Below, one piece after another: positions 6,001-39,360 of a stretch of 41,819 nt of DNA. A program made the position numbers and the translations under genes. Source of the stretch: a virus; the IMG/VR virus record IMGVR_UViG_3300020478_001370, positions 1-41,819 of that record; one strand, given 5' to 3'. Within the stretch, counting starts at the first letter, position 1. The number at the start of each line of letters is the position of its first letter. The notes beneath the pieces were generated by a model that did not search any database, had not been told where the DNA came from, and saw only the letters and a program-made list of their open reading frames with translations.

Positions 6001-7252
6001 ATTAGAATTAAGACACGCACCTGACAAAATTATAAATGCAGACGTAAATTCAGCGGCCGCAATAGCACAAAGTAAATTGAATCTTAATGCGGCAACAACA
6101 AGAGCAAATGAAATAGGAATTGTACAAAGTGATTTAGGTGTTGCTAGTTTTGATAGTGGTATCTTTACATCAACAAGCGGTTGGGTAACAATACAAAATG
6201 GTGCATTAAGTCATACAAAATTAAGCAGTATTGCTGACGGAACAGCATTAGGTCATGCTAGTGGAGATTCAAGTTCAGGTGATGTTACAGAAGTTCCATT
6301 TGCAACAATTGTTTCACAAGGTGGCGGTGTAATAGGAAGTACAACAACAACAGGTGAAGCTAATAAAATTGTTAAAACTGATGCTTTAGGAAACGTAGCT
6401 TCACAAGGAATTAAAGTTGATTCTTACTTAATTATAGATACGTCAGGGAATGTTGTTCAATTAAGTACACCTGGTGGTGCAGTATTTATGAGTTCGGTTG
6501 GTGTATCTAATCCAACTGTAAGCATGGCAGGAAGTCTTAACATTGGAGCGACTGGAGTATCAGAAGGTAATTTCCAACAAAACTCAGCACTAGCTGGTGA
6601 ATCAAGATTAGGTGTTGACTGGATACACAGTTCATTTATTGAAGCACCAGGAGAATTAGATGCACAAAGTACAGGTATTAGTATAGGTGCAAACACAGGA
6701 TTTACTGCCGCAGGTGAAATAGGTCTTGTAGCCGATGGGGCAACAGTCCTTAAAGCAACAGCAACAGGATTTGAACCTGAACTTGATAATACATATAATA
6801 TCGGTACTGCGACTAAAAAATATAACACTATGTACGCAACAGTCTTTAGTGGTACTGCAACAGAGGCACGTTATGCTGACTTGGCAGAAAATTATACAGC
6901 AGATGCAGAATACGAACCAGGTACAGTTTTAATATTTGGTGGTGAAGAAGAATTAACAGTTACAAGACTTAGAGGCGATAATAGAGTTGCTGGTGTTGTT
7001 TCAGAACATCCTGCATACTTAATGAATTCAGAATTAGAAGGATCTAATGTAACAGCAATAGCACTACAAGGTAGAACAAAAGTTAAAGCTATTGGAGTTG
7101 TTAAAAAAGGACAAATGCTTGTAACAAGTTCTACACAAGGATTTGCAAGTGCAAGTTCAACTCCAGAAATCGGAACTGTAATAGGTAAAGCAGTAGAAGA
7201 TAAAACAGACGGCGGTGAAGGACTTATCGAAGTTGTGGTAGGAAGAGTATAA
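2..7252 (+). CDS. Giant modular tail/fibre structural protein, 5'-truncated by the window edge
   Basis: The frame is open from the first bases of the window, so the start lies upstream; the first in-window ATG (290) is internal. About 2416 residues are visible. Sequence shows: three copies of a module carrying a C-E-R-D-x-x-Y motif (near 557, 1310 and 2222), three copies of a roughly 93-residue module ending in HTYVSGG (3541-4335), an AATKSYVDG segment near 5578, and a C-terminal region with YADLAENY (about 6871) followed by a compact Val/Gly-rich domain. That YADLAE arrangement resembles the intramolecular-chaperone (peptidase G2-like) C-termini of phage appendage proteins, which can self-cleave after trimerisation; this assignment is by pattern only. 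The composition is Thr/Ser/Asn/Gly-rich as in beta-structured fibres. The role is inferred to be a tail fibre or baseplate-attached virion protein. The stop overlaps the next ATG by one base. Confidence 0.85.
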   Translation, partial: RNEPPNANSYTFTIESFSNGDIIATNHGFETSSNGIAYRYNSTGTDATNLSTGTTYYLRYVTADQLSIHTSEAEAQNNDDSTRVKIVASGGTGTQTMFDAAYDSVLTGNWVSTEALPRKSVVRREGDTMTGALLLHDHPGAHAGATPQSPYAHSLITQNKEYLADEVMAWFDQQNPGVHTTARHEKCERDTKYNIDAIAHDIKFGGNAEVIRTGKIYWDGASSQLGAGEIAYAVSVNDKLRDIIKDFILTNTAYTSLQTVTTQKTIANNGETGSGDRVTELVSILNAIIQTGTYTGATIPTPNPDSLQAASKYYVDNSAHASHTNLYVSSFGDDTMRGVPKGNEGRAWNYAYKTVSAAALKAEEITDTAPTGIGPYVQDITYNAGNNKAQVTTTGVKNSSGYEEVKILTDANRKFIIAETIAYINQTYPDHVYSKDLCERDLGYILDGIVLDLLDGTTANYHSINAGYRYYSSVSGQRARTTQQTQTLAAQQFAKSLHNKVITNTTETTLYQQTYSQVIDTGQVVDVVGQTSVGAKWDIITNLITGPSYKSAPQLVEGSTWEITISNGSQGYCDQANPLNNDLIPGKLIRGKTSKAVGRIVKYTNGATDDTIELELLEPLTYTLGEELEFGYKVKDPQITIHIESGTYFEHYPIKVSSNVSLKGDEFRRVIIKPKPGVSESPWAAIHFYRDPVFDGIAVQTKQNPNATELITLNKEFIKDEVISYINTTYPSFLTNSQAQKCERDMGYILDGLVFDLRWGGNSKTHLNADKYWDGATSQVSGQQTETGAAILKMKEILGFVLTNAAWTPTQTVTSQVLDSTQGEAVAQTKVNTLLDFLKEVVVNGLTNLPDYDDPGYGYHYLTDKTNKLSTAKNNTDLDVFLMNDATILRNLTCEGHGGFMAVLDPFGAILTKSPYGQTNSSFSKSINKKAFRGGLYVDGFAGNMTTVVNSKDDNFTLNVQSLVGQGLRLKKPQVPCPFYIDGVRYQVDAVTNYDQEAGTAKLLLNPTSGLSNGGFTQPMPTDITLQTSGNRSFLANDWVQLNDLGYGTICNNGGLAELVSQFTYYCEAAYFANNGSDIRSLNGSNSYGTYGLVAAGSDPNEEPDLITSSTNMVQTARIYDDGGAVYDHPVDALKIYVRDVEYVPHSKSEIEIDHGGAIGRARYEISTVQETSITGVQTEITAVANGMAIDDIIEIRNMTVSCDTGNKTYPVVTPSTGFTVLASGLTADTFEVNLGTSSIAHTYVSGGHLVAGSRIAVTSATYTHGTGILSVTVASAHGLSASDSIDLYGLKFSCSYGVKVYPTPTTPGLYTVKTKPDNDKLGFFLPPSKVEHTYVSGGTAKKVTTSNSGSSVPVTGFVYDNTTGLTTVTFGSAHGWGKLDYVRVADVTLSCAFGNKVYPDTASKKSTGIFQIYDVPDTTSIVFDSGKSGLVHTYVSGGSVQKITYSLSTSANITGFTYKNSVRDEAVYQLNVATTGQDNTTKSGLLAPLTHDQKVIIRNNLNFRISGVDTTITRPSTAITFDEAIGNTYRTIGYSVTDSIGGALPANDRIVTFDSTYKYIKVTIDNGEAANNTFAGSGTTMGNTAGDVVLAVSKLTSQGDIDRLNAGDMIFAWDGKTHIIKSYTDRTTFATIEIEDLQSSDINVPATPVGIVSTVVNATTIVTLRCGLQKEEGGNITINISTCRATGHDFLDIGTGGFNTTNFPNITLGDPSQNADQEKEVDERDKGRVFYVSTDQDGFFRVGRFFTVDQGTGTVTFAASIALSNLDGLGFKRGVVASEFSADDAMTDNATDSVPTESAVRGYVNRRLGFTHAGVAVSNQIGPGALARSGVLAFTGDQNAGGTFTVANLRDPSDNQDAATKSYVDGLIAAGDTIPELLDVETNTVAAEQLLVTTGKYRLYTAPASGGNFQVNDTITGSGTSATGTVIDVENVSIGGVAHNLLTYTLTSGGNFNLGDVVDTGGGVTAQAKLGPLDEYALATEAAATDVTLHVERTQTGATLELRHAPDKIINADVNSAAAIAQSKLNLNAATTRANEIGIVQSDLGVASFDSGIFTSTSGWVTIQNGALSHTKLSSIADGTALGHASGDSSSGDVTEVPFATIVSQGGGVIGSTTTTGEANKIVKTDALGNVASQGIKVDSYLIIDTSGNVVQLSTPGGAVFMSSVGVSNPTVSMAGSLNIGATGVSEGNFQQNSALAGESRLGVDWIHSSFIEAPGELDAQSTGISIGANTGFTAAGEIGLVADGATVLKATATGFEPELDNTYNIGTATKKYNTMYATVFSGTATEARYADLAENYTADAEYEPGTVLIFGGEEELTVTRLRGDNRVAGVVSEHPAYLMNSELEGSNVTAIALQGRTKVKAIGVVKKGQMLVTSSTQGFASASSTPEIGTVIGKAVEDKTDGGEGLIEVVVGRV
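456..2545 (+). repeat. Three diverged protein-level repeats (CERD module) within the giant tail protein
   Basis: Related segments lie at about 456-885, 1222-1620 and 2118-2545. Each has an N-K-E-F/Y-type helix, then (K/L)CERD followed by x-x-Y-(I/N)-(L/I)-D, then a Tyr-rich stretch. Copies 1 and 3 also share a later L-T-N-x-A-x-T-x-x-Q-T-V-T-x-Q segment. Similarity is clear in protein and weak in DNA, so this is an old duplication. The module is probably a structural or receptor-facing unit; its function is unknown. Confidence 0.7.
3541..4335 (+). repeat. Three tandem ~93-residue modules ending in HTYVSGG
   Basis: Units at roughly 3541-3756, 3817-4032 and 4105-4335 share an S-C-x-x-G-x-K-x-Y-P core and end in HTYVSGG. 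The DNA around the end motif (tacgttagtggtgg and variants) is nearly identical in all three, so the duplication is more recent than the CERD modules. They are likely beta-sandwich domains strung along a fibre shaft. Confidence 0.7.
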
Positions 7253-8520
7253 TGGCACAGCAAAATATTAACATAGGAACTAGTGCAAATAAGGGCGATG
7301 GAGATCCGATCCGTACAGCCTTTACAAAAGTTAATGCCAACTTCACAGAACTATATGCAAAACACGATGGCACAGTAGCCCAAAAGGCCGATGTCCAAGG
7401 TTCTGTATATGGTGATGATTCTACAGTATTAATTGATGGAGTTTCTAATAAGGTTAATTTAGACGGAACTGTTAAAGGAAATATTATTCCAGATACTAAT
7501 GTTGCTTACGACATAGGTTCTAGTACAAAAAGATTTAAAGATTTATATCTTAGTGGAAACACTATTCATTTAGGAACTTCTACATTAAGCGTAGATGCTA
7601 ATGGTAACTTTGCATTTAGTGGCGGGTTGAAATCAAACAATCCAATAGTAGGTGATGATTCAACATTATTAGTTGATACTGCTAACAGTTCTATTCCTTA
7701 TGCAGTATTAAGTGGAGCACCAACAATTCCATCTACTACAGATAATATTACTGAAGGAACTAATTTATATTATACAGACGTTAGAGCAGATGCAAGAGCA
7801 GATCTTAAAATTACAGCTTTACAAACAGCAGGGTTTGATGGTGACATAAAAGGTTCAGTATTTGCAGATGATTCAACATTATTAGTTGACGGTGTAAATA
7901 GTAAGATTATTGGTCCAGTAGAAACATCAAGTTTAAGAACAAGTGAACGAGGTGTTACACTTGGCAACAACGCTCAAGGAAATGGCACATATAACGTATC
8001 AATAGGAAACGCGGCAATATCAGACAGTTATGGTGTAGCTATTGGTATGGAAACACAAGCTGACACTTATGATGTTAACGTTGGTGCTTTTTCAGGTAAA
8101 AATCATATAACAACAGCTCATGGATATAGAATTGCCGTAGGTGCTTTTGCACAACAAAACGCTAATGTTGGTGATGAAACAGGCATAGGTGCAATAGCTA
8201 TTGGTACTCTAGCTGGCGACAGTAATCAAGGTGCAAATGCAGTTGCTATAGGTCGGTATGCAGGTAGAAATGATCAAGCCGCAAAGAGTATTGTAATTAA
8301 TGCTACAGATTCGGACTTAGAAAATACAACAACAGATAGTTTAGTAATTAAACCAATTAGAAATACTGCAATGACAACAATATTAGGATATGATGCAACA
8401 TCGGGTGAAATTATGCATAATGCAAGTATACCTGGTTATTATGCTTTAGCAGATTGGAAAACATTGATAGCGGCAAGTACTGATTTTGCTGATTTTCAAA
8501 CAAGGGTAGCGGCACTATAA
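7252..8520 (+). CDS. Tail-fibre-like protein with N-terminal adaptor and YadA-like head repeats
   Basis: This 422-residue protein begins with an INIGTxANxGxGD..R.AF.KVNxNF.ELY adaptor (residues about 5-36) that recurs in the gene at 14062. The middle has repeated ADDSTLLVD segments and a DIGSSTKRFKDLYL motif typical of phage fibres. Residues of about 245-345 carry repeated (V/A)(A/S)IG-type strands (for example GAIAIGTLAG and NAVAIGRYAG), the pattern of the left-handed beta-roll head of trimeric YadA-type adhesins. The C-terminus (about 390-422) is a short Trp-containing segment. It overlaps the upstream stop by one base (TAATG), suggesting coupling. It is inferred to be a virion fibre with an adhesin-like head; its receptor is unknown. 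Confidence 0.75.
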   Translation: MAQQNINIGTSANKGDGDPIRTAFTKVNANFTELYAKHDGTVAQKADVQGSVYGDDSTVLIDGVSNKVNLDGTVKGNIIPDTNVAYDIGSSTKRFKDLYLSGNTIHLGTSTLSVDANGNFAFSGGLKSNNPIVGDDSTLLVDTANSSIPYAVLSGAPTIPSTTDNITEGTNLYYTDVRADARADLKITALQTAGFDGDIKGSVFADDSTLLVDGVNSKIIGPVETSSLRTSERGVTLGNNAQGNGTYNVSIGNAAISDSYGVAIGMETQADTYDVNVGAFSGKNHITTAHGYRIAVGAFAQQNANVGDETGIGAIAIGTLAGDSNQGANAVAIGRYAGRNDQAAKSIVINATDSDLENTTTDSLVIKPIRNTAMTTILGYDATSGEIMHNASIPGYYALADWKTLIAASTDFADFQTRVAAL

Positions 8521-8544: not shown

Positions 8545-10914
8545 ATGGCAAATAGAATACCACTAATAGTTGACGTACTAGACAGCAACAAAATTAAGGA
8601 ATTACCAATAGGTGATAACCTTGATTTAGGCGGTGCTGGTGTTACTAATGCTGGAACAATTAATGCTACAGACATCAGAATTAATAATGTTTCGTTTAAC
8701 AATCCATTCAGTGGTGACTATAACGACTTAACAAATAAACCAGTTATTCCAACAGTACCAAATGCTATAAGTGCCTTTGCAAATGATGTTGGATATCTAT
8801 CAGCAGGTACAACAACAGATCAAATTGCTGAAGGAACAAATAACTTATTTTATACCCTTGCTAGAGTTGATTCAAGAGTTAATGCACAAACAGGTGCAAA
8901 TTTAAATCTAGGTCAAAAGATAATAAGTGACTTAAAAGATGTTGCGGCTGTTACAGCAAATGATGATGGTAAAGTTTTATACTATGATCATCCATCTACT
9001 TCTTGGAAATGGAAAACAGATGCTGGTGGTGTAACAAAATTAACACAACTAAATGATGTTGATGCAGTAACTAGTGTTGATCATAACAAAATTTTATATT
9101 ACGATCATGCTACTACATCATTTAAATGGAAATTAGATACAAGTTCATTTACATTTAGCGTTGGCGCTGATGATTCAACATTAAGAACTATTAGTTCAAA
9201 TGAATCAGTTAAATTTGTTGGCGGTACTGGTATTACAACTGCTAGTGACACCGAAGGTAATATAACAATTACAGTTGGTAACATAGGAGATCTAGTAGAT
9301 GTTGGTACAGCTGGAGCAACAAATGGTCAGGTATTAACATATAACTCAGGTGCAGGAACTTGGGGACCAGGAAACGTTGCGGCACCAACTAATATTGACG
9401 ATTTAAATGATGTTGACACAACTACTACAGCTCCAGTTGATGACTATGTTTTAAGTTACAAAGATTCTACATCAAAATGGGAACCAAGACAATTAAACAA
9501 TGTTGATGCGGCAACTGTTACCACAGTCGCTAACTCAACAGCGGCGGCACAATTTGTAACGTTTGTTGCTACAGGTGACAGTAATGGTCAACAACTAAGA
9601 ACAGATGCCTCAATAACTTATAATCCTAATACAAATACATTAACAGCAACTTCGATAACAGGAACTACAGTTAATGCTACTAATTTAAATGTATCAGGTG
9701 CAATTGCAAACGGTGTAAACGAAATTAACTTTACTGGTGATGTTAAAATAGCATCTTCTAAAGAAGTTAGATATTATGATACTGATAATTCACACTACAT
9801 GGGATTTAAGGCTCCAGCTAATGTAACAGCAAGTAAAACATTTATTTGGCCAGATGGTGACGGAAGTGCAAACCAATTAATGCAAACAGACGGCAATGGA
9901 GTATTAAGTTGGGTAACACCGGCGGCTACAGGTGAATTAAATGAATTTTCATTTAAAACAATTGCAGTTTCAGGACAAAATAATGTTGTAGCAGAAACAA
10001 CAACTGACACATTAACGTTTGTTGCAGGAACAAATGTAACATTAACAACTGATGACACAGCTGATAGTATTACAATTAATGCAACAGGTGGTGGCGGAAC
10101 CCCAGGTGGTGTTGATGCACAAGTTCAATTTAATGATGGCGGCAGTACATTTGGTGGTGATGCAGGATTAGTATATAACAAAACAACTGACACATTAACT
10201 GGTATTAATGCTGTCTTTACAAAAGTAACAGCTGATGATATAGTAAGTTCAGGTGCAGGTGTACCGACTATTACTTCAGCAAGTAATTTAATATTAGATG
10301 CGGCTAATGCCGTTGTAGTACAAAAAGCACCTTTACGTATAGGTAGCTTTGATACTGACGGTATAGGAAATCTTGTAGGACAAGCTGGTGATGTAATTTA
10401 TAACAGTTCAGCAAAACAATTAGTATTCCATGACGGAACAGCTTGGGTTTCAACTTCAGATCCATTTACATTTAGTATCGGTGCTGATGACTCAACTATG
10501 AGAGTTATTTCAACAAATGAAGGTATTAAGTTTAGTGGTGGAACTGGAATTGATACAACAAGTGATGCAGAAGGTAATATTACAATTAAATCATCAGGTC
10601 CTACTATAGAATATGATGTAACTGCTAACGGATCATCTGCATATAGATTTGCAGGACCAGGTATTGATGGAACTGTAGATAATCCCGATCTTACACTATA
10701 CAAAGGATTTACATATATCTTTAACAATCTAGCAGGTGCAGGTCATCCATTTGAAATTAGAGTTAGTAATGGCGGAGCGGCATTTACAGAAGGTGTTACA
10801 GGATCTACAACAGGAACACAAACTTTTATACCACAACATAACACAAGTGATAGTGCGTTAGTATATCAATGTACTAATCATGCGGCAATGGTTGGTAACT
10901 TAACTATAGTGTAA
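8545..10914 (+). CDS. Modular tail-fibre protein with a C-terminal cupredoxin-like domain
   Basis: The protein has 789 residues. The N-terminus resembles phage fibre attachment regions. A repeated unit of the form L-x-D-V...G-x-V-L-x-Y...W occurs four times between about residues 125 and 320. A second module, FTFS(V/I)GADDST...NITI, occurs twice (near 9148 and 10464). The last ~100 residues (from 10600) form a separate beta domain with HPFEI (His codon 10744) and YQCTNHAAM (Cys 10870, His 10879, Met 10888). The His...Cys-x2-His-x2-Met set is the type-1 copper ligand pattern of plastocyanin-like proteins. A late box (8516) and an AGGA site precede it. It is inferred to be a virion fibre; copper binding is a hypothesis. 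Confidence 0.75.
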   Translation: MANRIPLIVDVLDSNKIKELPIGDNLDLGGAGVTNAGTINATDIRINNVSFNNPFSGDYNDLTNKPVIPTVPNAISAFANDVGYLSAGTTTDQIAEGTNNLFYTLARVDSRVNAQTGANLNLGQKIISDLKDVAAVTANDDGKVLYYDHPSTSWKWKTDAGGVTKLTQLNDVDAVTSVDHNKILYYDHATTSFKWKLDTSSFTFSVGADDSTLRTISSNESVKFVGGTGITTASDTEGNITITVGNIGDLVDVGTAGATNGQVLTYNSGAGTWGPGNVAAPTNIDDLNDVDTTTTAPVDDYVLSYKDSTSKWEPRQLNNVDAATVTTVANSTAAAQFVTFVATGDSNGQQLRTDASITYNPNTNTLTATSITGTTVNATNLNVSGAIANGVNEINFTGDVKIASSKEVRYYDTDNSHYMGFKAPANVTASKTFIWPDGDGSANQLMQTDGNGVLSWVTPAATGELNEFSFKTIAVSGQNNVVAETTTDTLTFVAGTNVTLTTDDTADSITINATGGGGTPGGVDAQVQFNDGGSTFGGDAGLVYNKTTDTLTGINAVFTKVTADDIVSSGAGVPTITSASNLILDAANAVVVQKAPLRIGSFDTDGIGNLVGQAGDVIYNSSAKQLVFHDGTAWVSTSDPFTFSIGADDSTMRVISTNEGIKFSGGTGIDTTSDAEGNITIKSSGPTIEYDVTANGSSAYRFAGPGIDGTVDNPDLTLYKGFTYIFNNLAGAGHPFEIRVSNGGAAFTEGVTGSTTGTQTFIPQHNTSDSALVYQCTNHAAMVGNLTIV

Positions 10915-10923
10915 GGAGAAGCT

Positions 10924-12441
10924 ATGAGTGAAAAACATTATGTTGTTTCTTTACACAAAGGCTTTGATAAAGAAGAAATAATTAACGACCTTAACCGTGA
11001 TACAACGTTAGACTCTAGCGTTGACAGTAACATAATCCCTGACAGAGAAGTACAAAATGTAAACACTAGACCTTCTAGTAAACGTATCTTTGAAGTTGCC
11101 TTAACAGACGAAGAAGTAGAAAAACTTAGAAAAGATCCTAGGATTGGTGATGTTAATACTCCTCTTGTATGGGACGATGACTGGATGGATTATGAACAAA
11201 CTGCTGATTGGACTAGAGATTCTATTACAACAACAAGAGGCAATTGGGGATTAGTAAGACAAGTTGATAAAACAAATCCTTGGGGTACTCTTGTTGCACA
11301 AGACTTATCAGCAGGAACAACTTATGATTATCATTTAGACGGTACTGGTGTTGATTATGTACACCAAGAAAGTAAATTTCGATATACACACGAACAATGG
11401 CAGGATAGAAATGGTGTTAGTCGTTTAGTACCTTTTCAATGGAATACACTTCCAAATTGTAGTGGCATAGCTACTCAAGATTATACTAATACAACAGGAT
11501 CAAGTTATCATGCAACGCATTGTGCCGGAACGGCAGTAGGAAAAGATTATGGTTGGGCTAAAAATGCCAATGTATACTGTTTAGATATGGATTCAGTTAC
11601 TTCAAGTTATTGGTTTGATGCTATTAAAGAATTTCATAAAGCTAAAGCACCAGATCCAGTAACTGGAGTTAAAAGACCAACAGTAGTAAGTGCAAGTTGG
11701 GGCTATAAATCCTACTTTACTTCAATAGGAGATATTCAATTTAGAGGGGCTAGTGTAGGAAGTGTTAAAAGTGCTGACTACGGAATGATTGGTGACGGAT
11801 TTGGTCGCTTTAATGCAAATCTTTATCAGCTTAATGTTGAAGTTGAAGAAATGCAAGATGAAGGTGTACACTACTTTAAAAGTGCCGGAAACCAATATCA
11901 AAAACTTTGTTATCCAACAGATATAGATTATGATAATTATATTAAAAGAACTGTAGATTCAGGAAATATTTCCGCAGGACAACCTGTATATTATAATAGA
12001 GGTGCAGGTAACATTGGACCTGATACAGTTGTTGTAGGTAACTTAGACAGTGAATTACATAATAATGGCGAAGCTACAAATAATTCAAGTGATAAAGGAC
12101 CTAGAGTTGATTTATGGGCGGCTGGTACAGATATAGTTAGTGCTACAAATACAAGTGATACAGCAGTATTAAATCTTAGTGGAACATCAATGGCTACACC
12201 ACAAGTTGCTGGAATGAGTTGTTTATTACTACAATTAAATCCAGGTTGGACACCTGCACAATTACGTAAATGGTGGCAGGATAATGCTGTTAAAGATTTA
12301 TTGTTTCAAGGTTCAACAGACGAAAATACACCATCTACTTTTTTCTCTAATAATAGAAGTTTAATGAATGGTCCGAATAGAATAGCTTATTTTCCGTTCG
12401 CGGCTCATAGGGCTATGACAACAAACGTGGGTATTGGTTAA
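10924..12441 (+). CDS. Subtilisin-like (S8) protease paralogue 1, catalytic Asp replaced by Glu
   Basis: The protein has 505 residues. Residues 1-80 resemble an inhibitor I9-type propeptide. The peptidase core shows H196 in HATHCAGT, the oxyanion Asn323 in SAGN and S422 in GTSMATPQVAG. Where the neighbour has the catalytic Asp (IQDDGI), this protein has HQESKF, putting Glu149 at the Asp position and losing the following Gly. It may therefore be weak or inactive. It has no signal peptide and sits among virion genes, so it is probably virion-associated, for example in maturation of fibre proteins or in digesting host surface protein. An AAGGAG site lies 7 nt upstream of the start. Its stop overlaps the next start (TAATG). 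Confidence 0.85.
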   Translation: MSEKHYVVSLHKGFDKEEIINDLNRDTTLDSSVDSNIIPDREVQNVNTRPSSKRIFEVALTDEEVEKLRKDPRIGDVNTPLVWDDDWMDYEQTADWTRDSITTTRGNWGLVRQVDKTNPWGTLVAQDLSAGTTYDYHLDGTGVDYVHQESKFRYTHEQWQDRNGVSRLVPFQWNTLPNCSGIATQDYTNTTGSSYHATHCAGTAVGKDYGWAKNANVYCLDMDSVTSSYWFDAIKEFHKAKAPDPVTGVKRPTVVSASWGYKSYFTSIGDIQFRGASVGSVKSADYGMIGDGFGRFNANLYQLNVEVEEMQDEGVHYFKSAGNQYQKLCYPTDIDYDNYIKRTVDSGNISAGQPVYYNRGAGNIGPDTVVVGNLDSELHNNGEATNNSSDKGPRVDLWAAGTDIVSATNTSDTAVLNLSGTSMATPQVAGMSCLLLQLNPGWTPAQLRKWWQDNAVKDLLFQGSTDENTPSTFFSNNRSLMNGPNRIAYFPFAAHRAMTTNVGIG

Positions 12442-14048
12442 TGGCTGACGAAAAAGAATATAAAGTTATTACTAAAAAAGGTATTGATATTGCAGAAATA
12501 GAAGCTGAACTAGAAAGAGATACAACTAGTGATGCTACTGTTAGTGCAAATGTTCCAGATAGAACTGTTGATGTAGCTTATGCTAAAAAAGCCAACAATA
12601 GAATTACTCATTATATGCTAACTGATGCTGAAGCATCAGAACTATCAAAAGATCCACGAATACACGTAGTAGAAACAGAACCTGATCCAAACCTTGCTAA
12701 ACACGAACCATACGAAATACAAACTGCACAGTTTGATAGATCTACATCTAATGATCAAGATGCAAAAAACTGGGGTTTATATAGACATATAATTAAAGAA
12801 TTTGATTCTGCTTCATCAAGTAACACATATTCAGCAGATTATACATATAGTTTAGACGGTACAGGTGTTGATATTGTTATTCAAGATGATGGGATTGAAC
12901 CTTTTGGTCATCCTGAATGGGAAGATGCACAAGGTAATACAAGATTTGAACAAATAGATTGGTATGCGTCTACAGGTATTGCAGGAACTATGCCAACAGG
13001 ACATTATACTAATGGATTTTCAGATGGTAATAATGCAGGACAGCATGGAAGTCACGTAGCAGGTATTGCCGCAGGTAAAACATTTGGTTGGGCCAAGAAT
13101 GCAAAAATTTATTCTTTAAGACATTATGGTGGATCTCCAAACGAAATCTCCGATGCTGACAAATTTGATCTTATTAGAGTTTGGCACGAAAAGAAACCTA
13201 TAGATCCCAATACAGGATTTAAACGTCCAACTATTGTAAATCAAAGTTGGGGTTGGAGTGCTGGGTATCCAAGTCCAATTACTCATGTCTTTTATAAAGG
13301 TGTAGATCAAAATATTACTGCACAATCTTTTAGTACTACTGCCTTTGCACAATACGGAATGGTAGCAACTAAATTTCCTTATGTAAAGGCTTCAGAGGAT
13401 GTTGAACAAGAACAATTAACAGATTCAGGTATAATTTGTGTTAAGGCGGCTGGTAATTATTACCATCCATGTGCAGGACCTAATGCACCTTATTATAGTG
13501 GTATCTATGATAGTTACTTTACATATAGCGGAGGCGATCTTCATTATAATCGTCCAAGTTCGCCACATAGTGATGATACTATATTTGTTGCAAATATGGA
13601 TAGAGAACAATTCGGAACTGAAGAATATATAACAGAGAAAAGTGAGAGAGGTCCACGTATTGATATAATAGCCGGCGGTGTTGATATTTCAAGTGCTACA
13701 AGCCAAGTTAGTGGATATCCTGGAACACAATTTTACCCAGGAAGTGCAACTCATAAAATGACAAGAATAAGTGGAACATCTATGGCGGCTCCACAAGTAA
13801 CTGGAGTTGGAGCATTATGGTTACAAGCAAACCCAGGTGGAACTGCCCAACAATTTAAAGATTTTCTTAAAATTCATAGTACAGCTAATTCTTATGATAG
13901 TGGTACAGATGAATCTTTTGATGATTTTAATACTGTTCCAAGACGTTATGGAGCACCTAATAGAATACTACATTGGCCCTATAATAGTCCTAATCCTTGG
14001 GGTTGGAAAGGTACTAGCGGCAGTGGCACAGCTGGAATAAATACATAA
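12441..14048 (+). CDS. Subtilisin-like (S8) serine protease paralogue 2, intact triad
   Basis: The protein has 535 residues and is a tandem paralogue of the preceding gene, sharing the N-terminal I9-like region (both contain TD.E...L.KDPRI) and the TFGWAKNA / DYGWAKNA segment. The triad is complete: D149 in IQDDGI, H202 in QHGSHVAG and S447 in GTSMAAPQVTG, with oxyanion Asn339 in KAAGN. PQV replaces the usual PHV in the serine motif of both copies. There is no secretion signal. It is inferred to act within the virion or at the host surface; a role in processing neighbouring fibre proteins is possible but unproven. It is translationally coupled to paralogue 1. Confidence 0.88.
   Translation: MADEKEYKVITKKGIDIAEIEAELERDTTSDATVSANVPDRTVDVAYAKKANNRITHYMLTDAEASELSKDPRIHVVETEPDPNLAKHEPYEIQTAQFDRSTSNDQDAKNWGLYRHIIKEFDSASSSNTYSADYTYSLDGTGVDIVIQDDGIEPFGHPEWEDAQGNTRFEQIDWYASTGIAGTMPTGHYTNGFSDGNNAGQHGSHVAGIAAGKTFGWAKNAKIYSLRHYGGSPNEISDADKFDLIRVWHEKKPIDPNTGFKRPTIVNQSWGWSAGYPSPITHVFYKGVDQNITAQSFSTTAFAQYGMVATKFPYVKASEDVEQEQLTDSGIICVKAAGNYYHPCAGPNAPYYSGIYDSYFTYSGGDLHYNRPSSPHSDDTIFVANMDREQFGTEEYITEKSERGPRIDIIAGGVDISSATSQVSGYPGTQFYPGSATHKMTRISGTSMAAPQVTGVGALWLQANPGGTAQQFKDFLKIHSTANSYDSGTDESFDDFNTVPRRYGAPNRILHWPYNSPNPWGWKGTSGSGTAGINT
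14036..14043 (+). promoter_or_regulatory. Probable late promoter box AATAAATA
   Basis: The box lies in the last codons of the protease gene. The predicted start near 14049 would give a 13-nt leader with AAGAGAG before the ATG at 14062. It matches the T4 box at seven of eight bases, but its position inside a coding region lowers certainty. Confidence 0.4.
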
Positions 14049-14061
14049 GAAGAGAGATAAA

Positions 14062-14766
14062 ATGGCCGTACAAACTATAAACATAGGAACACTAGCAAAC
14101 GACGGAACAGGTGATGATCTACGTGAAGCGTTTATTAAAGTTAATCAAAACTTTGAAAGTTTAGATCTACGAGCTCCTGAATCAACTACTGCAAGTAATT
14201 TAGGTAATGTTGGTGAAGGTGTTTTCCATCAAAAAGCTGGAGCAGATTTACAGTTTAAAAAACTCGTTAGTGGTGCTAATATTACATTAACATCTTCAAC
14301 TAATGGGATTACAGTTAATGCTTTAGGCGGATTACAACAATTAAATGTTGTTTCTGATTCCGGATCTAACCAATTAGCTGATGGTGATACGTTAAATATA
14401 TTCGGAGGAACAGGTGCTAGTACAACTTTAAGTGGCAATGTTTTAACTGTTAATACAACTACTGAACTTTCAACTGATACTACTCCAGTATTAGGTGGAA
14501 ATTTAGATGCAAACGGAAATAACCTTATTAACGGTGGAACATTAACAGCAAGTAGTTTTAACGGTACTTTTAACGGAAACTTAACTGGATTAGTACATGG
14601 TATTGATATTAGATTAATGGCACCTAATACAGCAGGTTTTAATTTTGGAACTTTCAACGGTGTAGTAACTAGTATGATTGACTGGTTAATTGCAATAACC
14701 GATGTAGACTTTGGTAGTTTTTATGTTCCAGACGGTAAAAGTTTTGACGCAGGGACTATAGTATAA
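14062..14766 (+). CDS. Short fibre/structural protein with shared N-terminal adaptor
   Basis: The protein has 234 residues. The first ~35 (INIGTLANDGTGDDLREAF then KVNQNFESL) are nearly the same adaptor as in the gene at 7252, which suggests both proteins dock to the same virion site. The centre is Thr/Gly/Asn-rich with LGGNLDANGNNL, a motif frequent in phage fibre proteins. The C-terminal ~50 residues (RLMAPNTAGFNFGTFNGV onward) form a distinct, more hydrophobic segment ending in DAGTIV. It is inferred to be a virion structural protein. Confidence 0.7.
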   Translation: MAVQTINIGTLANDGTGDDLREAFIKVNQNFESLDLRAPESTTASNLGNVGEGVFHQKAGADLQFKKLVSGANITLTSSTNGITVNALGGLQQLNVVSDSGSNQLADGDTLNIFGGTGASTTLSGNVLTVNTTTELSTDTTPVLGGNLDANGNNLINGGTLTASSFNGTFNGNLTGLVHGIDIRLMAPNTAGFNFGTFNGVVTSMIDWLIAITDVDFGSFYVPDGKSFDAGTIV

Positions 14767-14776
14767 GGATAAAAAT

Positions 14777-15655
14777 ATGGCAACATTAACAATTACATCA
14801 AATGGTTTACCTAACCCAGCGGCATTTGGAAAAAGTTTTGGGAATAATAGTTTTTCACCAAGTGTAAATACTGCAACTGCCCAAACGTACAACTATTCTT
14901 TTGTTTATCGCGGTGGCGAAAATACTACTAATGCACAAGTAACAGTTCCATTAACACCAATGGGTATTATGTCTAATGGCGTTGTATTTTTTAATCCTTC
15001 AATAGGACCAACAGTAGTTCCACCAGGACTCGATCCTACTACAGATAAACCAAGTGACGGATTTGAATATAATGCAGTAGCATTTAGATCAAATTACGGA
15101 GGAGATGATGCAGGCGGATGGCCAGAAACTAACGGACAATATCATTATATGTCTGGAATGTTTATGTTCCTTCCAACAGGTTCATCAGAATCTAATGCGG
15201 CCTGGAGTTCTACAATGTTAAGTGGAGCATCACCTACACCAACATATTATACTGGAACAAACTTTGGTGGAGATCAATTTAGACACACAGATGGACATAG
15301 CAAAATTATAGGATACTGTTTTGACGGTTATCCTATTTACGGACCTTATTCATATACAGATCCTAATGCAGAAGTAGGAACGGCTGTTACTAGAATGACA
15401 TCTTCATATCAGTATTATACAACAGAACCAGCAGGACGTGGTTATACTTACGGTGAAAAAGCGGCTGGTACGTTTATTAATGACCATGAATATCAAGTAG
15501 GTACAGGACACTTAGATCAATATAACGGAAGATATAATAAAACGCCTGATTATCCTAATGGGACGTATGCATATTATATGACTGTTGATGCAAGTATGCA
15601 ACCTGTTTATCCTTACATTGTTGGACCTTCAACGAAACAGCAACGAAGCGTTTAA
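14777..15655 (+). CDS. YHYH-domain protein
   Basis: The protein has 292 residues. NGQYHYM and, further on, HSKIIGYCFDGYPIYGPY are the diagnostic pair of the YHYH domain, a family of unknown activity found in secreted bacterial proteins and marine phages. The protein is rich in Tyr, Gly and Thr, with no signal peptide or membrane helix. It sits in the fibre/structural block, 10 nt after the previous gene, with AAGGA before the ATG. The second Y/H of the canonical YHYH is Met here (YHYM). A virion location is inferred; a metal-binding or enzymatic role cannot be told from sequence. Confidence 0.8.
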   Translation: MATLTITSNGLPNPAAFGKSFGNNSFSPSVNTATAQTYNYSFVYRGGENTTNAQVTVPLTPMGIMSNGVVFFNPSIGPTVVPPGLDPTTDKPSDGFEYNAVAFRSNYGGDDAGGWPETNGQYHYMSGMFMFLPTGSSESNAAWSSTMLSGASPTPTYYTGTNFGGDQFRHTDGHSKIIGYCFDGYPIYGPYSYTDPNAEVGTAVTRMTSSYQYYTTEPAGRGYTYGEKAAGTFINDHEYQVGTGHLDQYNGRYNKTPDYPNGTYAYYMTVDASMQPVYPYIVGPSTKQQRSV

Positions 15656-15719: not shown

Positions 15720-18700
15720 ATGTCAAATTTACCAGTTTGGAACCAATTATCAGGGTATAAACTAGCAGAACTAGAGGAAAGAGTAACTACGACAGTTAAT
15801 CTGCCTTTAGATCCTTCTAGTGCGGATATTATTACAGGATTTAAACCTGACGATACAGCATTAAGCAGTTCGCCATTACCTACATTAACAAACTCATCAG
15901 ATTTAAGTATTGAAAAAACTTGGACACAAACTGTTAATAATGTTCCTAATACAAGTGTAACTTACACTTATCCTATATCTATTAGAATTCCAACAATTCC
16001 ATCTTTAGCAACTAAAAAAGTACCAGTAGTTATTATACTACACGGTAACGGTGGTAATGGTTCTGCTGAAATTACAGCTTGGCAAAATTATTTAGGAGAT
16101 CATATTATAATTGCTCCTACAGGATATTCAAACTCATGGAATTTAGCCAACGAAGAATCAAAAGCACCTGACATAGAATTTCTTAAAGATTTAATTGCAA
16201 AGTTAAAAGGGTTTAATAATGTTGATCAATCAAAAATAAAATTTCTTGGATTTAGTAATGGTGCAGGAATGGTTAATAGAGCGTTTATTGAAATAGACGA
16301 CCCCGACATTGATTCATATGTAACTATTGGTACACAATTATATGATCCACAATATAGGAATAATACATTTTTCTTTCCGTCAGGACAAACAGGATCTAGT
16401 CCTGCACAATATAATACAGCAACAATACCTTTACAAAATAAACGATACTTGTCTATTCATTCAACAGACGATGGTACTATTCCTTATGCAGGCGGAGTTG
16501 TTTCTGGTAATATAGGATTAACATTTTTACCCGTACAGGAATCTGCTTTTGTTATCGCAAAAAGTCAAGGATACACAGGCGGACAAATTCCAGATGGTGG
16601 AGGAGTATTTTATGGAACAAATAATACTTACTACTACAGTTATTTAGGCGGGCGAGTAACACATTATAAAACTCAAGCAGGACATACAATAGCACCCTTT
16701 ATGCGAGAAATTGTTCAAGCGTTTATGACGTATGTACCTAGTACTGCTCCTGACATTTATTTAGAAGCAGGATCAAGTACAGCTATACAACTTAATACAA
16801 GTATTATAAGTTTAATTAGTGGTAAGTTACCTCCTGGAATGAGATTAGAAGAAAATCAAATAGTAGGAACACCATTTGAAGTACAACGTGGTGAAACATT
16901 TGAATTTGTATTACGTGCAACTAATTCTTCTGGAATTGCTGATAGAACATTTAATATTGTTGTAAATGGTCCTGATGCACCTGTATGGACAACTAATGAA
17001 GGTAAACTTCCTTTAGGGCCTAATAATTCTTTTTATATTATAGATAGCAGTATTGTTGACTTCCAACTTTCTGCAATTGATCCAGATTTACCAGCAGGTG
17101 ATAAACTAGAATATTTTATTGCAGATGGTGATGGTACATTACCTCCAGGTATAAAATTAACTGACCAAGGAAGACTGATTGGAATTGTTGATCCTATTTT
17201 GGCATTAGATTTAGCATCTAGTAGTGGATTTTATGATACTACACAGTTTGATAGTTTTCCTTTCGACTTTGGTTTACGAAGTGCTAATGGGTATGAAAGT
17301 TATTTTTATGATACTACAGGATATGACTTTGCTATTGAAACACGTAGTCCTAAAAAACTTAATAGATTTTTTGAATTTATAGTAAGTGTTAGTGACGGTG
17401 ATACAATAGTAAAAAGGAAATTTATAATCTTCTTAGTAGGTGATGACTTCTTACGTGCAGACAATACTGTTATGCAAGTAGGTACCGGAATATTTACAGC
17501 TGATAATACATTCCTTAGAACACCTGTTTGGTTAACACCGGCTAACATTGGATATAAACGAGCAAATAACTATGTAACAATATATTTAGATGTATTTGAT
17601 CCTAACACTATTGTAGGCAAATTAAATTATTCTTTAGAACAATATAATGATGATGGAAGTGCAAGTACTTTACCACCAGGAATGGCATTAGATGTTAATA
17701 CTGGTGAAATTGCAGGACGAGTTCCTTATCAGCCAGCTATTACTAAAGAATATAAATTTACAATTGACGCAAGACGCTTTACTGATCAAGCAGTTAAATT
17801 AGCTTCTAAGAAAAAAACATTTACTGTTAAAATATTAGGCGAAGTTGAAAGTGCAATAGAATGGGAAACTTCCGCTGACCTAGGAACTATTAAAGCAAAC
17901 TTTATTAGTACCTTTAGTGTAAAAGCAAAAATCCTTAACCAATCAATTAGTAGTAAAGTTTTATATAGAATTACTGCCGGAGAGTTGCCACCAGGATTAA
18001 AGTTAAATCCTAACGGAGAAATTGTTGGCAAAGTAAATCAATTTAAAAATTTTGATGAAATAGGAAAATCCTGGAACAAAGGATTAACAACAATTGATAA
18101 AAATGTACTTACACTAGATAATTCTACAACTACTATTGATAGAAAATTTAAATTTACAGTTGAAGCTAGAGACCGTTTTGGATTTAGTGTATTATCACAA
18201 GAGTATAATATTGTAGTTTCTGATCCTGATAATATAAGTTATAGTAATTTGTATGTTAAGCCTTTTATGAAGACAAATCAAAGAACACTTTATAATAACT
18301 TTATTGGTGATCCTAATATATTCGATCCTGATAAAATTTATAGACCTAACGATCCTTCATTTGGACTACAAAAAGAAATTAAAATGTTAGTATATGCAGG
18401 AATCGAAACTAAAGACGTTAAAGAATATGTTTCAGCATCTAGAAAAAATCACAAAAGAAAAAGGTATAAACTTGGAGCAGTTAAAACAGCAGTAGCCAAA
18501 ACAGCAGGAACAAATACTATTGAATATGAAGTTGTTTATTTAGAAGTAATTGATCCTTATGATTCAACATCTAGTACTGATGTTCAAAATACAGTTGATG
18601 TTAAAACTAAAGGCAAACATACTGTAGATAGCGTATCATATGAATCGTTTGACGATGTTACAAAAGAAGGGGCAGGTATTGCCGTATTTGAAATAGTAAA

Positions 18701-19253
18701 TTCTTTAGGCTTTACAGTTCAAGTAGTAGCTCTTGGTAATGACTTAGAAATTGTTACTAGAAATAATGGTACAATAATAATTGACGCAAACGGAACAATT
18801 CAAGTACAACTAAAAGATGGAAGTACTGTAACAGCCGGAACAATTGCTACAACTACTAGTGATCCATTTAGATGGAGACCTAAATATTCACCAATAAAAA
18901 CTGATAGTGATGCTATTCTAATTAGCGATCCTTTTAACACTAAACGTTATATTAGCAACATTACTAATATGCGTAAAAATATGAAAAAAGTTGGAGTTAC
19001 AGAACGTGATTTCTTACCACTATGGATGACTACTGCTCAAGGTACTTCTGTACAAGAATTAGGATTTGTAACAGCTATTCCATTATGTTACTGCAAACCT
19101 GGTACTAGTGCCACTATAGCATTAAATATTGCTAACAATAAGTTCAATTTTAGAAGTTTAGATTTTGAAATTGATAGATATATCATTGATGCTACTAAAG
19201 GAAATAGCTACGAGCAGTATATACCGTTCGGGAATTATGCCTTTAATGTTTAA
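15720..19253 (+). CDS. Large virion protein: N-terminal alpha/beta-hydrolase (PHB-depolymerase-like) domain plus Ig-like LPPG repeats
   Basis: The protein has 1177 residues. Residues ~85-335 look like an esterase of the PHB-depolymerase/feruloyl-esterase type: oxyanion motif LHGNGGNG (107-114), nucleophile elbow GFSNGAG (S179), an acid in STDDGTIPY (D250 or D251) and H322 in QAGHT. The complete triad suggests activity. From ~340 to 840 at least four segments carry LPPGM/I/L followed by G-x-(I/L)-x-G (He_PIG/cadherin-like Ig folds), the usual make-up of large marine T4-like structural proteins. The C-terminal ~330 residues, with NLYVKPFMK and later RWRPKYSPIK, resemble conserved baseplate-associated sequence. 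Role inferred: a tail or baseplate protein carrying a surface-degrading enzyme domain. Confidence 0.8.
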   Translation: MSNLPVWNQLSGYKLAELEERVTTTVNLPLDPSSADIITGFKPDDTALSSSPLPTLTNSSDLSIEKTWTQTVNNVPNTSVTYTYPISIRIPTIPSLATKKVPVVIILHGNGGNGSAEITAWQNYLGDHIIIAPTGYSNSWNLANEESKAPDIEFLKDLIAKLKGFNNVDQSKIKFLGFSNGAGMVNRAFIEIDDPDIDSYVTIGTQLYDPQYRNNTFFFPSGQTGSSPAQYNTATIPLQNKRYLSIHSTDDGTIPYAGGVVSGNIGLTFLPVQESAFVIAKSQGYTGGQIPDGGGVFYGTNNTYYYSYLGGRVTHYKTQAGHTIAPFMREIVQAFMTYVPSTAPDIYLEAGSSTAIQLNTSIISLISGKLPPGMRLEENQIVGTPFEVQRGETFEFVLRATNSSGIADRTFNIVVNGPDAPVWTTNEGKLPLGPNNSFYIIDSSIVDFQLSAIDPDLPAGDKLEYFIADGDGTLPPGIKLTDQGRLIGIVDPILALDLASSSGFYDTTQFDSFPFDFGLRSANGYESYFYDTTGYDFAIETRSPKKLNRFFEFIVSVSDGDTIVKRKFIIFLVGDDFLRADNTVMQVGTGIFTADNTFLRTPVWLTPANIGYKRANNYVTIYLDVFDPNTIVGKLNYSLEQYNDDGSASTLPPGMALDVNTGEIAGRVPYQPAITKEYKFTIDARRFTDQAVKLASKKKTFTVKILGEVESAIEWETSADLGTIKANFISTFSVKAKILNQSISSKVLYRITAGELPPGLKLNPNGEIVGKVNQFKNFDEIGKSWNKGLTTIDKNVLTLDNSTTTIDRKFKFTVEARDRFGFSVLSQEYNIVVSDPDNISYSNLYVKPFMKTNQRTLYNNFIGDPNIFDPDKIYRPNDPSFGLQKEIKMLVYAGIETKDVKEYVSASRKNHKRKRYKLGAVKTAVAKTAGTNTIEYEVVYLEVIDPYDSTSSTDVQNTVDVKTKGKHTVDSVSYESFDDVTKEGAGIAVFEIVNSLGFTVQVVALGNDLEIVTRNNGTIIIDANGTIQVQLKDGSTVTAGTIATTTSDPFRWRPKYSPIKTDSDAILISDPFNTKRYISNITNMRKNMKKVGVTERDFLPLWMTTAQGTSVQELGFVTAIPLCYCKPGTSATIALNIANNKFNFRSLDFEIDRYIIDATKGNSYEQYIPFGNYAFNV

Positions 19254-20097: not shown

Positions 20098-20628
20098 ATG
20101 AAGATGCAAATAGATAATCTAGGTGTACCACGATTCACTGTCCAAGATATTATAAATTTAATTTATGAAGGGAATGGTGATAAGCTCTCTAAAATTTTGG
20201 TAGAGCCAAATCGTGATACAGAATTATATAACAAATATATTAAAGAAATTGGAGTGAACCTTGCTCCACTTAAATCATATCAACCACTTCCATACGAAAA
20301 AAAAGATTTTGATAAGACGTTACAAGAAGAATGGTTTATGCCAGACAAGTACAAAAAATTAGATATCTATAATTATGTTTTAGACCAATGTCCAGACGAA
20401 CCAAAAGAAATGGCTAGAGTTTGTGAAGAGATGCATGAATATGATAAACGAGGTATGTTCAATTTATTAAGATTTCTTGTATATTTGGTAGACATAATGA
20501 GAGAAAATAACATAGTTTGGGGTGTAGGACGTGGTTCTAGTGTATCAAGTTATGTGCTATACTTAATTGGAATTCATAAAATTAACTCAATCCAGTATGA
20601 GCTAGACTGGCATGAGTTCATGAGATAA
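20098..20628 (+). CDS. Stand-alone DnaE-like (DNA polymerase III alpha) fragment
   Basis: The protein has 176 residues. Its C-terminal ~60 residues match the start of the C-family polymerase palm: an F-x-L-x-x-x-x-D-I-M-R-E-N-N helix, then WGVGRGSSVSSYVLYLIGI (compare G-x-G-R-G-S-x-x-G-S-L-V-A-Y in bacterial DnaE) and x-x-Y-x-L-D-W-x-x-F-x-R. The gene stops just where the catalytic Asp-x-Asp motif would follow, and there is no PHP domain, so it cannot polymerise alone. The N-terminal ~110 residues are unlike anything I recognise. No ribosome binding site is visible. It could be a decoy or accessory protein acting on the host polymerase; this is inference. Confidence 0.6.
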   Translation: MKMQIDNLGVPRFTVQDIINLIYEGNGDKLSKILVEPNRDTELYNKYIKEIGVNLAPLKSYQPLPYEKKDFDKTLQEEWFMPDKYKKLDIYNYVLDQCPDEPKEMARVCEEMHEYDKRGMFNLLRFLVYLVDIMRENNIVWGVGRGSSVSSYVLYLIGIHKINSIQYELDWHEFMR

Positions 20629-34290: not shown

Positions 34291-35157
34291 ATGGCAAATT
34301 ATTATGACATACTAGGTGTTCCTCGAAACGCTTCTGATAAAGATTTAAAAGATGCTTTCAAAAAGAAAGCTATGCAATACCATCCCGATCGTGGTGGTTC
34401 TGAAGAACAATTTAAAAAACTTAATGAAGCATATGATGTATTAAAAGATCCACAAAAAAAATCAATGTACGATCAGTTTGGTACTACTAATCCCCAACAA
34501 AATCCTCGCGGACAAGAATACCATTTTCATGGTGACATTAATGTAGAAGATATTTTTAACTCTTTCTTTGGTGATAATCACGGACATCCATTTTTTGGTC
34601 GTGGATTTCAACAACGACCTAGAAATCAAAACATTACAATTGCCGCAGATATTGAGTTAGAAGATGTAGTACATGGTAAAAAATTAATTGCAAGTTATAG
34701 ACTCCCTAATGGACAAGAACAAACAGTTAATATCGAAATCCCACGTGGAGTTAGACACGGCGATACAATTAACTTTAGAGGCATGGGGGCAAATGAGTAT
34801 ATTCCAGCTAGACAACCAGGGGATCTTCATGTTAAAATACGTATTAAAAAACATCCCATATATGATGTGGATGGATTAGATTTATATATAACTAAAAATG
34901 TAGATCTATTCGATCTAATTCTAGGAACTAATATTAGTGTTGAGACAATACATGGTAAAAAACTAAATGTAATTGTTCCGTCAGGCTCAAATTCAGGTAC
35001 AACGTATAGTATAAGTGAACAAGGACTTCCAGATCATAGAACTGGTGCTACTGGAAGACTATTTGTAAAAGTAAATGGAATAACACCAAAAATTAATAAT
35101 GAAAAGATAAGAGAAAGGTTAAGAAAAATACAGAATGAAACTAATAAAGGCTCCTAA
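34291..35157 (+). CDS. DnaJ/CbpA-like co-chaperone
   Basis: The protein has 288 residues. The J domain (about 1-66) has YHPDRGG with the HPD motif that stimulates Hsp70 ATPase. A short G/F/H-rich linker (about 67-108) leads straight into two C-terminal beta domains ([36 protein letters not shown]); the zinc-finger of DnaJ is missing, as in CbpA. It would work with host DnaK, in line with the neighbouring deformylase and ClpA. No ribosome binding site is visible before the ATG. Its end overlaps the deformylase gene by 23 nt. Confidence 0.88.
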
Positions 35158-35662
35158 TAGTTGGTTAGAAAAAAAAGTAGCACCTTTTGATTTTAATATC
35201 CATAATGCTGTAGACATTGAAAAAGAAATGTCAACAATTATGCTAGAAAATGAAGGTGTTGGATTAGCGGCTAACCAAGTTGAACTAGATGCTCAAATTT
35301 TTATTATATCCCCAACTGATTTAAAAGGCTACGAAGACAAAAAACCGTTTGCTATCATTAATCCTAAAATAACTCATGTAACTGAAGAAACAATTATAGG
35401 TGAAGAAGGCTGTTTAAGTTTTCCGTTTTTATACTTTAAGGTAAAACGTCCTTACGGTTTGATAATAGAGTGTCTTGACAGCAAACAAAAAGAGTGTACA
35501 ATAGAACTACAAGGATGGAATGCAAGAATATTCGGACACGAATACGATCACTTGTACGGAATCAATTATACAGATAGAGTAAGTAAGTTAAGATTAAATA
35601 TGGCTATAAAGAAACGTGATAAATTTTTAAAACGTTATAAATCAAGGGTAAAAAATGGTTGA
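35135..35662 (+). CDS. def: Peptide deformylase
   Basis: The protein has 175 residues. All three deformylase motifs are intact: GVGLAANQV (41-49), EEGCLSFP (C93) and GHEYDHLYG (H135, E136, H139), giving the Cys-His-His metal site. It removes the N-terminal formyl group from nascent proteins; phage deformylases are known from cyanophages, where they may favour turnover of host photosystem proteins, an argument that does not apply to a non-phototroph. The C-terminus is basic. It is nested between the dnaJ-like and clpA genes with overlaps at both ends. Confidence 0.93.
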
Positions 35663-37895: not shown

Positions 37896-37906
37896 CTAGG
37901 AGTAGT

Positions 37907-38590
37907 ATGATGATTAAGTATGAAAGCAAAAAGCTATTTTACGACAAGTACATTTACAAACTAGGAGTTTACAATCCTATTGGGTTTATCTTTCGAAATA
38001 AGAATCTAAGTAAAGCTAGAAAAGCCATTGACGAATTACAATTCAACATCGATAATGCAGAAAAATTACAATATAAAAATGATCCCACATCTTTACGTCA
38101 TGTCGATGTTCATATAGACGATATTCACGATCTTAAATATCTTCTTTTTCAATTCGAAACTAATTCAGAGTATACAATTCGTTGTGAAGGGCGTAAAATG
38201 GGTATATTCTCTAACAACGAAGAATGGTTAAAACAAATAGCAAAAAAACTTAATTGTGTTTGCGATTTTTATGAGCCTGCATCTGATACATTTGATACAC
38301 TTATAAACAATAAAAATATCCTTATTAAAAACCCTCCTTGGGACCACAAATATAAGATTACTCTTGGTGATAAAACCATAGATTCTAACTTCTATAATTG
38401 GGCTAAATTAAATCCAGATAAAGTACGGGTTAGTCCAGGATTACTTAAAACTATCTATGATAAGGGCTATGTAAAAGGAAAATATCTATATTTACGTGAC
38501 GAAAAAGTACTAACACTTGCCCAGTTATTTTTAGGTGGCAATATCACTAGAATTGACACAATAGTTATAAAGGAAGATGTAGATAAATAA
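37907..38590 (+). CDS. Unrecognised 227-residue protein
   Basis: TAGGAG precedes two consecutive ATGs (37907 and 37910); either could be used. The protein is basic and aromatic, with YDKYIYKLGVYNPIGFIFRN at the start, a central acidic segment (HVDVHIDDIHDLKYL) and a C-terminal YLYLRDEKVLTLAQLFLGG. No motif that I recognise and no membrane helix. It follows clpA by 11 nt and is probably co-transcribed with it. Confidence 0.6.
   Translation: MMIKYESKKLFYDKYIYKLGVYNPIGFIFRNKNLSKARKAIDELQFNIDNAEKLQYKNDPTSLRHVDVHIDDIHDLKYLLFQFETNSEYTIRCEGRKMGIFSNNEEWLKQIAKKLNCVCDFYEPASDTFDTLINNKNILIKNPPWDHKYKITLGDKTIDSNFYNWAKLNPDKVRVSPGLLKTIYDKGYVKGKYLYLRDEKVLTLAQLFLGGNITRIDTIVIKEDVDK
38582..38589 (+). promoter_or_regulatory. 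Late promoter box GATAAATA, exactly 13 nt before the next ATG
   Basis: It overlaps the stop of the preceding gene. T4 spacing would start transcription at 38595, the A of the ATG, giving a leaderless transcript. The nearest AAGGA is about 20 nt from the ATG, too far to serve. Confidence 0.5.
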
Positions 38591-38594
38591 TAAT

Positions 38595-38936
38595 ATGTCC
38601 AGTGTGAGCGAAACAATTTTAACAAATCAAGTACACCCAGGTGATAGTACCTCGGTTACAGTAACAGGTACCAAGTATAAAGGCGACGGCTATTATGGTA
38701 GAGCTGACGGGTTTCATACAGTACAATACAATGTTGCTGAATTTAACGGTACTATTAAAATGCAGGGTACTTTAGCAATTACACCAGCAGAAACTGATTA
38801 TTTTGATATAGCAGGTACTGAAGAAGTGGGTACAGATGGTACTTATTTCAAGAATTTTACTGGTAATTTTGTATGGGTTAGAGTTGTAGCAACATATACA
38901 TCAGGTACAATACAGTCTGTACTATTAAATCATTAG
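38595..38936 (+). CDS. Small structural protein (113 aa), marine-phage type
   Basis: It is all-beta in pattern, with GDGYYGRADGFHTVQYNVAEF, MQGTLAITPAETDYFDI and NFTGNFVWVRVVATYTSGTI, a block order I associate with virion-associated proteins in marine T4-like phages. There is no signal or membrane segment. Lack of a ribosome binding site and a late box ending 5 nt upstream suggest a leaderless late mRNA. Role in the particle is unknown. Confidence 0.65.
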   Translation: MSSVSETILTNQVHPGDSTSVTVTGTKYKGDGYYGRADGFHTVQYNVAEFNGTIKMQGTLAITPAETDYFDIAGTEEVGTDGTYFKNFTGNFVWVRVVATYTSGTIQSVLLNH

Positions 38937-38944
38937 GAATCAGC

Positions 38945-39214: not shown

Positions 39215-39225
39215 CATTAAAGTCT

Positions 39226-39233
39226 GATAAATA
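39226..39233 (+). promoter_or_regulatory. Late promoter box GATAAATA
   Basis: It lies in the gap before the Cys-rich peptide gene. A start near 39239 gives a 16-nt leader with TAAGGAG, spaced 7 nt from the ATG. Confidence 0.7.
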
Positions 39234-39254
39234 CTCTATATAAGGAGTTTTATC

Positions 39255-39356: not shown

Positions 39357-39360
39357 TAAT

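Follow-up and report, generated by a model that had tools for sequence, protein, structure and literature searches.

Gene content of the locus

The window analysed here is a 41.8-kb virus contig (41,819 nucleotides) that carries, on its plus strand, a baseplate module. Three genes of this module encode a weak match to T4 gp9/10 N-terminal-like proteins (7252-8520; Pfam, 0.0096, with PHROG matches), a baseplate wedge tail-fibre connector-like protein (8545-10914; phrog_677, 3.9e-36) and a protein with a gp9-like N-terminus, of the baseplate/tail-fibre connector family (14062-14766; phrog_677, 8e-11). Two subtilase (S8) genes, recognized by Pfam and by motif, stand in tandem at 10924-14048, and both have the GTSMA(T/A)P serine motif, as GTSMATP in the first (10924-12441) and GTSMAAP in the second (12441-14048). 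The gene at 14777-15655 encodes a YHYH-domain protein (Pfam YHYH, 3.8e-34; phrog_2576), a domain that is fused to a hydrolase in cyanophages. According to an earlier proposal (PMC7824862), a YHYH protein acts as a metal-dependent hydrolase associated with the tail; in pelagimyophages, YHYH proteins are counted among the putative receptor-binding proteins (PMC7029224).

Downstream of the YHYH gene lies a single open frame on the same strand (15720-19253), which encodes 1177 amino acids. By frame and Pfam analysis this protein consists of an N-terminal segment, an alpha/beta-hydrolase domain, He_PIG Ig-like sequence and an uncharacterised C-terminal region, and the architecture is kept in relatives of 1141-1184 amino acids. 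The N-terminal segment (residues 1-54; 15720-15881) is conserved in alignments of the window clade, is modelled by AlphaFold2 with low confidence over residues 1-50 (pLDDT about 42-74), and may serve for attachment. The hydrolase domain follows at about residues 55-336 (15882-16727), as delimited by phrog_2576, AlphaFold2, Foldseek and a family profile. A previous sequence-only reading had described the remainder of the protein as Ig-like repeats, which holds for the two stretches matched by Pfam He_PIG, the best being residues 608-705 (17541-17834; E 6e-11), but not for the rest of the C-terminal region, which has no identified fold. The AlphaFold2 model of the C-terminal region is unusable (pLDDT 35), and the C-terminal 827 residues show no homology to cyanophage baseplate proteins of the T4-GC399 type. 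That this region is only partly identified by Pfam and modelling counts against the interpretation favoured below.

Elsewhere in the window, a 176-aa protein (20098-20628) matches a DNA polymerase family of equal length, phrog_11127, and represents a split or partial polymerase. Genes for an ATP-dependent protease (phrog_4871, E 1.4e-243) and a cytidyltransferase are found at 34291-41605, far from the tail genes. The window's clamp loader most closely resembles its counterparts in the jumbo phages PA5oct (54%) and Atu_ph07 (47%).

A predicted serine esterase site

The sequence-only reading had proposed a complete alpha/beta-hydrolase site made up of HGNGG, GFSNG with S179, D250 or D251, and H322, and had looked to structure prediction for an aligned triad. 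The AlphaFold2 model of the domain (50 sequences; pLDDT 88.8, pTM 0.85) is a confident alpha/beta-hydrolase with the triad residues at the canonical places. In this model, the GFSNG nucleophile elbow (residues 177-181; 16248-16262) forms a strand-turn-helix, with S179 (codon 16254-16256) between strand 168-178 and helix 180-191. The predicted acid D251 (16470-16472) comes after strand 242-248, and the predicted catalytic H322 (16683-16685) is flanked by strand 313-318 and helix 326-335. The order of elbow, acid and histidine along the core strands is thus that of a canonical alpha/beta-hydrolase, and the modelled fold together with this order points to a serine esterase of that class.

The same residues are conserved. 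Among 50 relatives, H108 of the HGNGG oxyanion-hole motif (residues 108-112; 16041-16055) and D251 are invariant, as is D151 of an APD motif (16170-16172), and at least 90% of the relatives have S179 and H322; D251 and H322 were found in every covered sequence. We also inspected 73 distinct sequences singly, 72 of which had a readable elbow, and residue 179 was serine in 68 of these, aspartate in three and glycine in one. The serine is kept down to about 33% identity. Since position 250 varies among the 50 family members (D, N, S, T, A or L) while D251 does not, the acid must be assigned to D251, and the part of the earlier proposal that named D250 falls away. With this correction, HGNGG, GFSNG, D251 and H322 are confirmed as a real site, and the confident model together with the profile, tblastn and Foldseek matches given below shows that it is no chance assemblage.

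Relationship to known esterases

Residues 54-333 align with positions 298-576 of the phrog_2576 profile (PHROGs, E 6.9e-61); the first half of this profile is YHYH, and the upstream YHYH gene of the window matches about positions 1-283. A tblastn search matched 65 cyanophage records (best E 1e-44). When the model was compared with the PDB by Foldseek, the acetyl xylan esterase AoAXEB from Aspergillus was the best match (E 1.9e-13); a feruloyl esterase (E 2.5e-9) came ahead of carboxylesterases and acyl-protein thioesterases, with DPP IV also matched at lower scores. The family profile reached AoAXEB by sequence as well (E 2.1e-9); the alignment matches S and D, and the histidine lies outside the aligned part. 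AoAXEB of Aspergillus oryzae (PDB 9j07/9j08) and the feruloyl esterases (8jh8) have the same fold and are the nearest solved structures, but they are single-domain secreted fungal enzymes with about 20% identity to the phage domain.

These likenesses in modelled structure and in sequence suggest an AoAXEB-like enzyme, for which activity on acetylated or feruloylated polysaccharide can be predicted. No Pfam hydrolase family scored above its cut-off in the window protein, which we count against the favoured interpretation; sub-threshold matches included Abhydrolase_2, BD-FAE, AXE1 and others. The relation to esterase families is therefore one of predicted fold and remote profile. The domain had been assigned to the PHB-depolymerase/feruloyl-esterase kind, and Foldseek and the profile bear out the feruloyl-esterase half of that label, whereas Esterase_PHB gave no match over the curated Pfam cut-off.

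The fold and motifs of SGNH tail deacetylases are absent from the domain, whose Foldseek matches are alpha/beta-hydrolase esterases. SGNH tail esterases (G7C gp63.1, Aristophanes gp41 and Klebsiella prophage fibres) are virion ester hydrolases, as is proposed for the window domain, and they deacetylate host glycans (PMC13123978, PMC8471582). However, they have a different fold, belong to another family and are carried on tail spikes or fibres, so that the window domain would work like them without being a member of their family.

Distribution and domain arrangements

Related marine phages do carry the domain, a point that the earlier reading had left for checking: it is found in cyanophage baseplate modules and on marine virus contigs. 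Five arrangements occur among the relatives. On marine contigs, including the window, the hydrolase is joined to an Ig/C-terminal region (1141-1184 aa); in Kyanoviridae cyanophages it forms a YHYH-hydrolase of about 575-595 aa; and in L003 and L084-L087, it forms an S8-hydrolase of 930-990 aa. Hydrolase, YHYH and Ig/C regions are united in one protein of about 1810 aa in L064-L073. Finally, assemblies of Flavobacteriales, Neomarinimicrobiota and Opitutia encode secreted-looking single or multidomain proteins, and by eye these bacterial homologues have N-terminal signal-like sequences or dockerin-like repeats.

The cyanophage YHYH-hydrolases (S-ShM2 'gp7' ADO97705.1, S-RIM14, S-SSM4 and ACG-2014d; phrog_2576) have a homologous hydrolase domain, 33-40% identical and with the full triad, and their gene lies in the baseplate module beside gp9 and gp8. 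Unlike in the window, the hydrolase stands behind YHYH and lacks the Ig/C-terminal region, and the proteins are labelled unknown or 'gp7'. The S-ShM2 protein (L001, 7098-8819) is annotated 'gp7 baseplate wedge initiator' and is made of YHYH and esterase domains; this name is probably wrong.

Because the same parts have been fused repeatedly, it can be argued that they act at one site of the particle. From synteny and from the fusions to YHYH, S8 and Ig/C-terminal regions, we infer that the hydrolase protein is a component of the virion baseplate. In Atu_ph07, the gene of an S8 protein labelled 'extracellular serine proteinase precursor' (MF403008) adjoins a tail fibre gene; its product has an Ig-like region of weak similarity (25%, E 6e-4), but it is annotated as a protease and lacks an esterase of the window type. 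Subtilase, hydrolase, YHYH, Ig/C region and DNA polymerase also follow one another in the phage gene order on a contig assigned to a Neomarinimicrobiota MAG (L089; PBPT01000016.1, 335,231 bases), which probably comes from a jumbo phage and was misbinned.

Serine loss and possible domain exchange in the nearest relatives

The nearest relatives of the window are 64-71% identical to it over the hydrolase domain, and it is among these that the elbow is altered. It reads GFDTG in the L007, L010 and L024 types, GFGLG in L028 and GFSAG in L018, while all other relatives have GxSNG. The types with Asp179 retain the histidine and the acid, and their HGNGG motif drifts (HGDSG). Although Asp (GAT) and Ser (AGT) at codon 179 differ by two base changes, a sequencing error is unlikely, as GAT ACT recurs in three sequence types from 10 contigs.

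Selection on the domain differs between clades. For the hydrolase domain, ML omega in the Asp clade was estimated at 0.216 (bootstrap 0.15-0.28; the set includes L018, which has serine, and gives 0.189 without it). A comparable clade with serine gave 0.058 (0.041-0.080), and broader sets of Ser sequences gave 0.087-0.089. For the C-terminal region, the corresponding values were 0.069 in the Asp clade and 0.035-0.065 in the Ser sets. No such rise was seen when the set contained the Gly relative L028 (0.094). As the increase falls chiefly on the hydrolase in the Asp clade, constraint is relaxed there, with the domain still under selection. Decay of the whole enzyme cluster is not seen: the S8 GTSM(A/S)xP and YHYH motifs are intact in the same phages. 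The Asp and His of the S8 enzymes in the serine-altered phages were not located by simple patterns, and dS/dN values for the two subtilases were set aside, the two queries having cross-hit. What is new here, at the level of sequence, is the lack of the serine in the nearest relatives alongside neighbouring enzymes in which the signature motifs that were checked persist.

In all five altered types, a gene for a 341-aa peptide transporter of the SbmA/BacA type (PF05992, E 1.8e-117) stands between the YHYH and hydrolase genes (L010, 6937-7962; L028, 4936-5961; L007, 5519-6544; L018, 4939-5964; L024, 4937-5962), and this insertion is absent from every other relative with a readable site. It accounts for the gap of about 1.08 kb upstream of the hydrolase in the Asp and Gly relatives, so a second, intact hydrolase copy in that gap is excluded. 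Since the five types may descend from only one or two events, we make no causal claim linking the insertion to the serine change. The SbmA/BacA gene has a low dN (0.010-0.045), and between L010 and L018 its dS (0.08) is below the 0.28-0.51 of four neighbouring genes; it therefore appears to be functional and separately mobile. At least 80 IMG/VR loci encode SbmA/BacA relatives, and 12 of those contigs have this operon. In one of these loci (L140), the gene lies beside ClpS-like and oxygenase-like genes. A literature search for SbmA carried by phages as an auxiliary gene found no papers.

The hydrolase domain may also have been exchanged. In a tree of the C-terminal region, the window groups with L010 (UFBoot 99), and the alternative is rejected (AU p 0.011), whereas in the hydrolase tree the window falls outside the Asp clade (UFBoot 99), with AU p of 0.06 and 0.25 for constrained trees. 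Over residues 61-300, identity of L010 to the window drops to 59-84%, as against 72-94% to L007, L024 and L018. As the trees conflict but the AU tests are only partly decisive, these data are suggestive of recombination of the hydrolase domain between phages.

Proposed function and alternative explanations

We consider it reasonably probable that the window encodes a working serine esterase on the phage tail base that deacylates a host surface glycan, and that in sister phages the serine was lost and the domain apparently exchanged. S179 would act as nucleophile, H322 as base and D251 as acid, with the oxyanion hole formed by the HGNGG segment and the residue after S179. Anchored by the Ig-like and C-terminal region, the esterase would sit on the baseplate beside the two subtilases and the YHYH protein, in what is probably a cluster of surface-processing enzymes. 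On host contact, acetyl or other acyl groups would be stripped from the surface glycan, allowing the phage to bind or to reach the membrane. The sequence-only reading had suggested that host surface polysaccharide is deacylated during adsorption, which the analogy with the SGNH tail esterases makes plausible, and the low omega of the Ser clades (0.06-0.09) is as expected if catalysis matters.

The domain could instead be an adhesin for an acylated glycan, with catalysis unimportant even in the window phage, since in sister phages without the serine (Asp in three types, Gly in one) purifying selection (omega about 0.2) still maintains the fold. We regard this as unlikely, given that the window and all relatives lacking SbmA keep the whole triad and that omega in the Ser clades is much lower. 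An active hydrolase with another substrate, such as a lipid ester, an acyl-protein or a peptide or amide bond, would accord with the lower-scoring Foldseek matches to acyl-protein thioesterases, carboxylesterases and DPP IV; it seems improbable when acetyl xylan and feruloyl esterases give the best matches by structure and sequence and the two adjacent subtilases could supply proteolysis. There is even less reason to place the protein outside the virion, set free inside the infected cell or upon lysis. The bacterial homologues do look secreted, but the gene lies in the baseplate module, its domain is fused to Ig and YHYH regions, and the N-terminus of the window protein has by eye no signal-like segment, making this explanation very unlikely.

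For the sister phages, Asp nucleophiles do occur in the alpha/beta-hydrolase superfamily. The change to GFDTG, common to three sequence types and with histidine and acid kept, might have produced an Asp-nucleophile hydrolase with the chemistry of epoxide hydrolases or haloalkane dehalogenases. This is quite improbable, as omega of the domain is up about 2.5-4 fold (0.216 vs 0.058-0.089) and that of the C-terminal region far less, which fits relaxed constraint; moreover, the oxyanion motif drifts and another relative has glycine. The sequence data thus favour lost catalysis over new chemistry in the Asp clade, and the domain there would most likely be an inactive or binding-only remnant left after a change of host or receptor. 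It is doubtful, though conceivable, that the domain is a swappable tail-base cassette under selection driven by the host, in which serine gave way in one phage lineage to Asp or Gly when SbmA/BacA entered upstream, yielding a binding-only or Asp-nucleophile form and a changed host encounter.

Returning to the tail-base esterase that we favour, the serine loss in close relatives counts against it; the activity must be dispensable in some hosts. The loss also suggests that the esterase is a tool swapped or switched off as hosts change. Tail esterases of the SGNH fold are already known, and what is new is the alpha/beta-hydrolase fold and the baseplate setting. If the proposal is true, abundant marine phages would carry a classical alpha/beta-hydrolase esterase on the baseplate, among proteins whose present labels are 'unknown' or 'gp7', and the natural serine-minus siblings, about 70% identical and at the same gene position, would offer a ready test of deacylation versus binding in host range.
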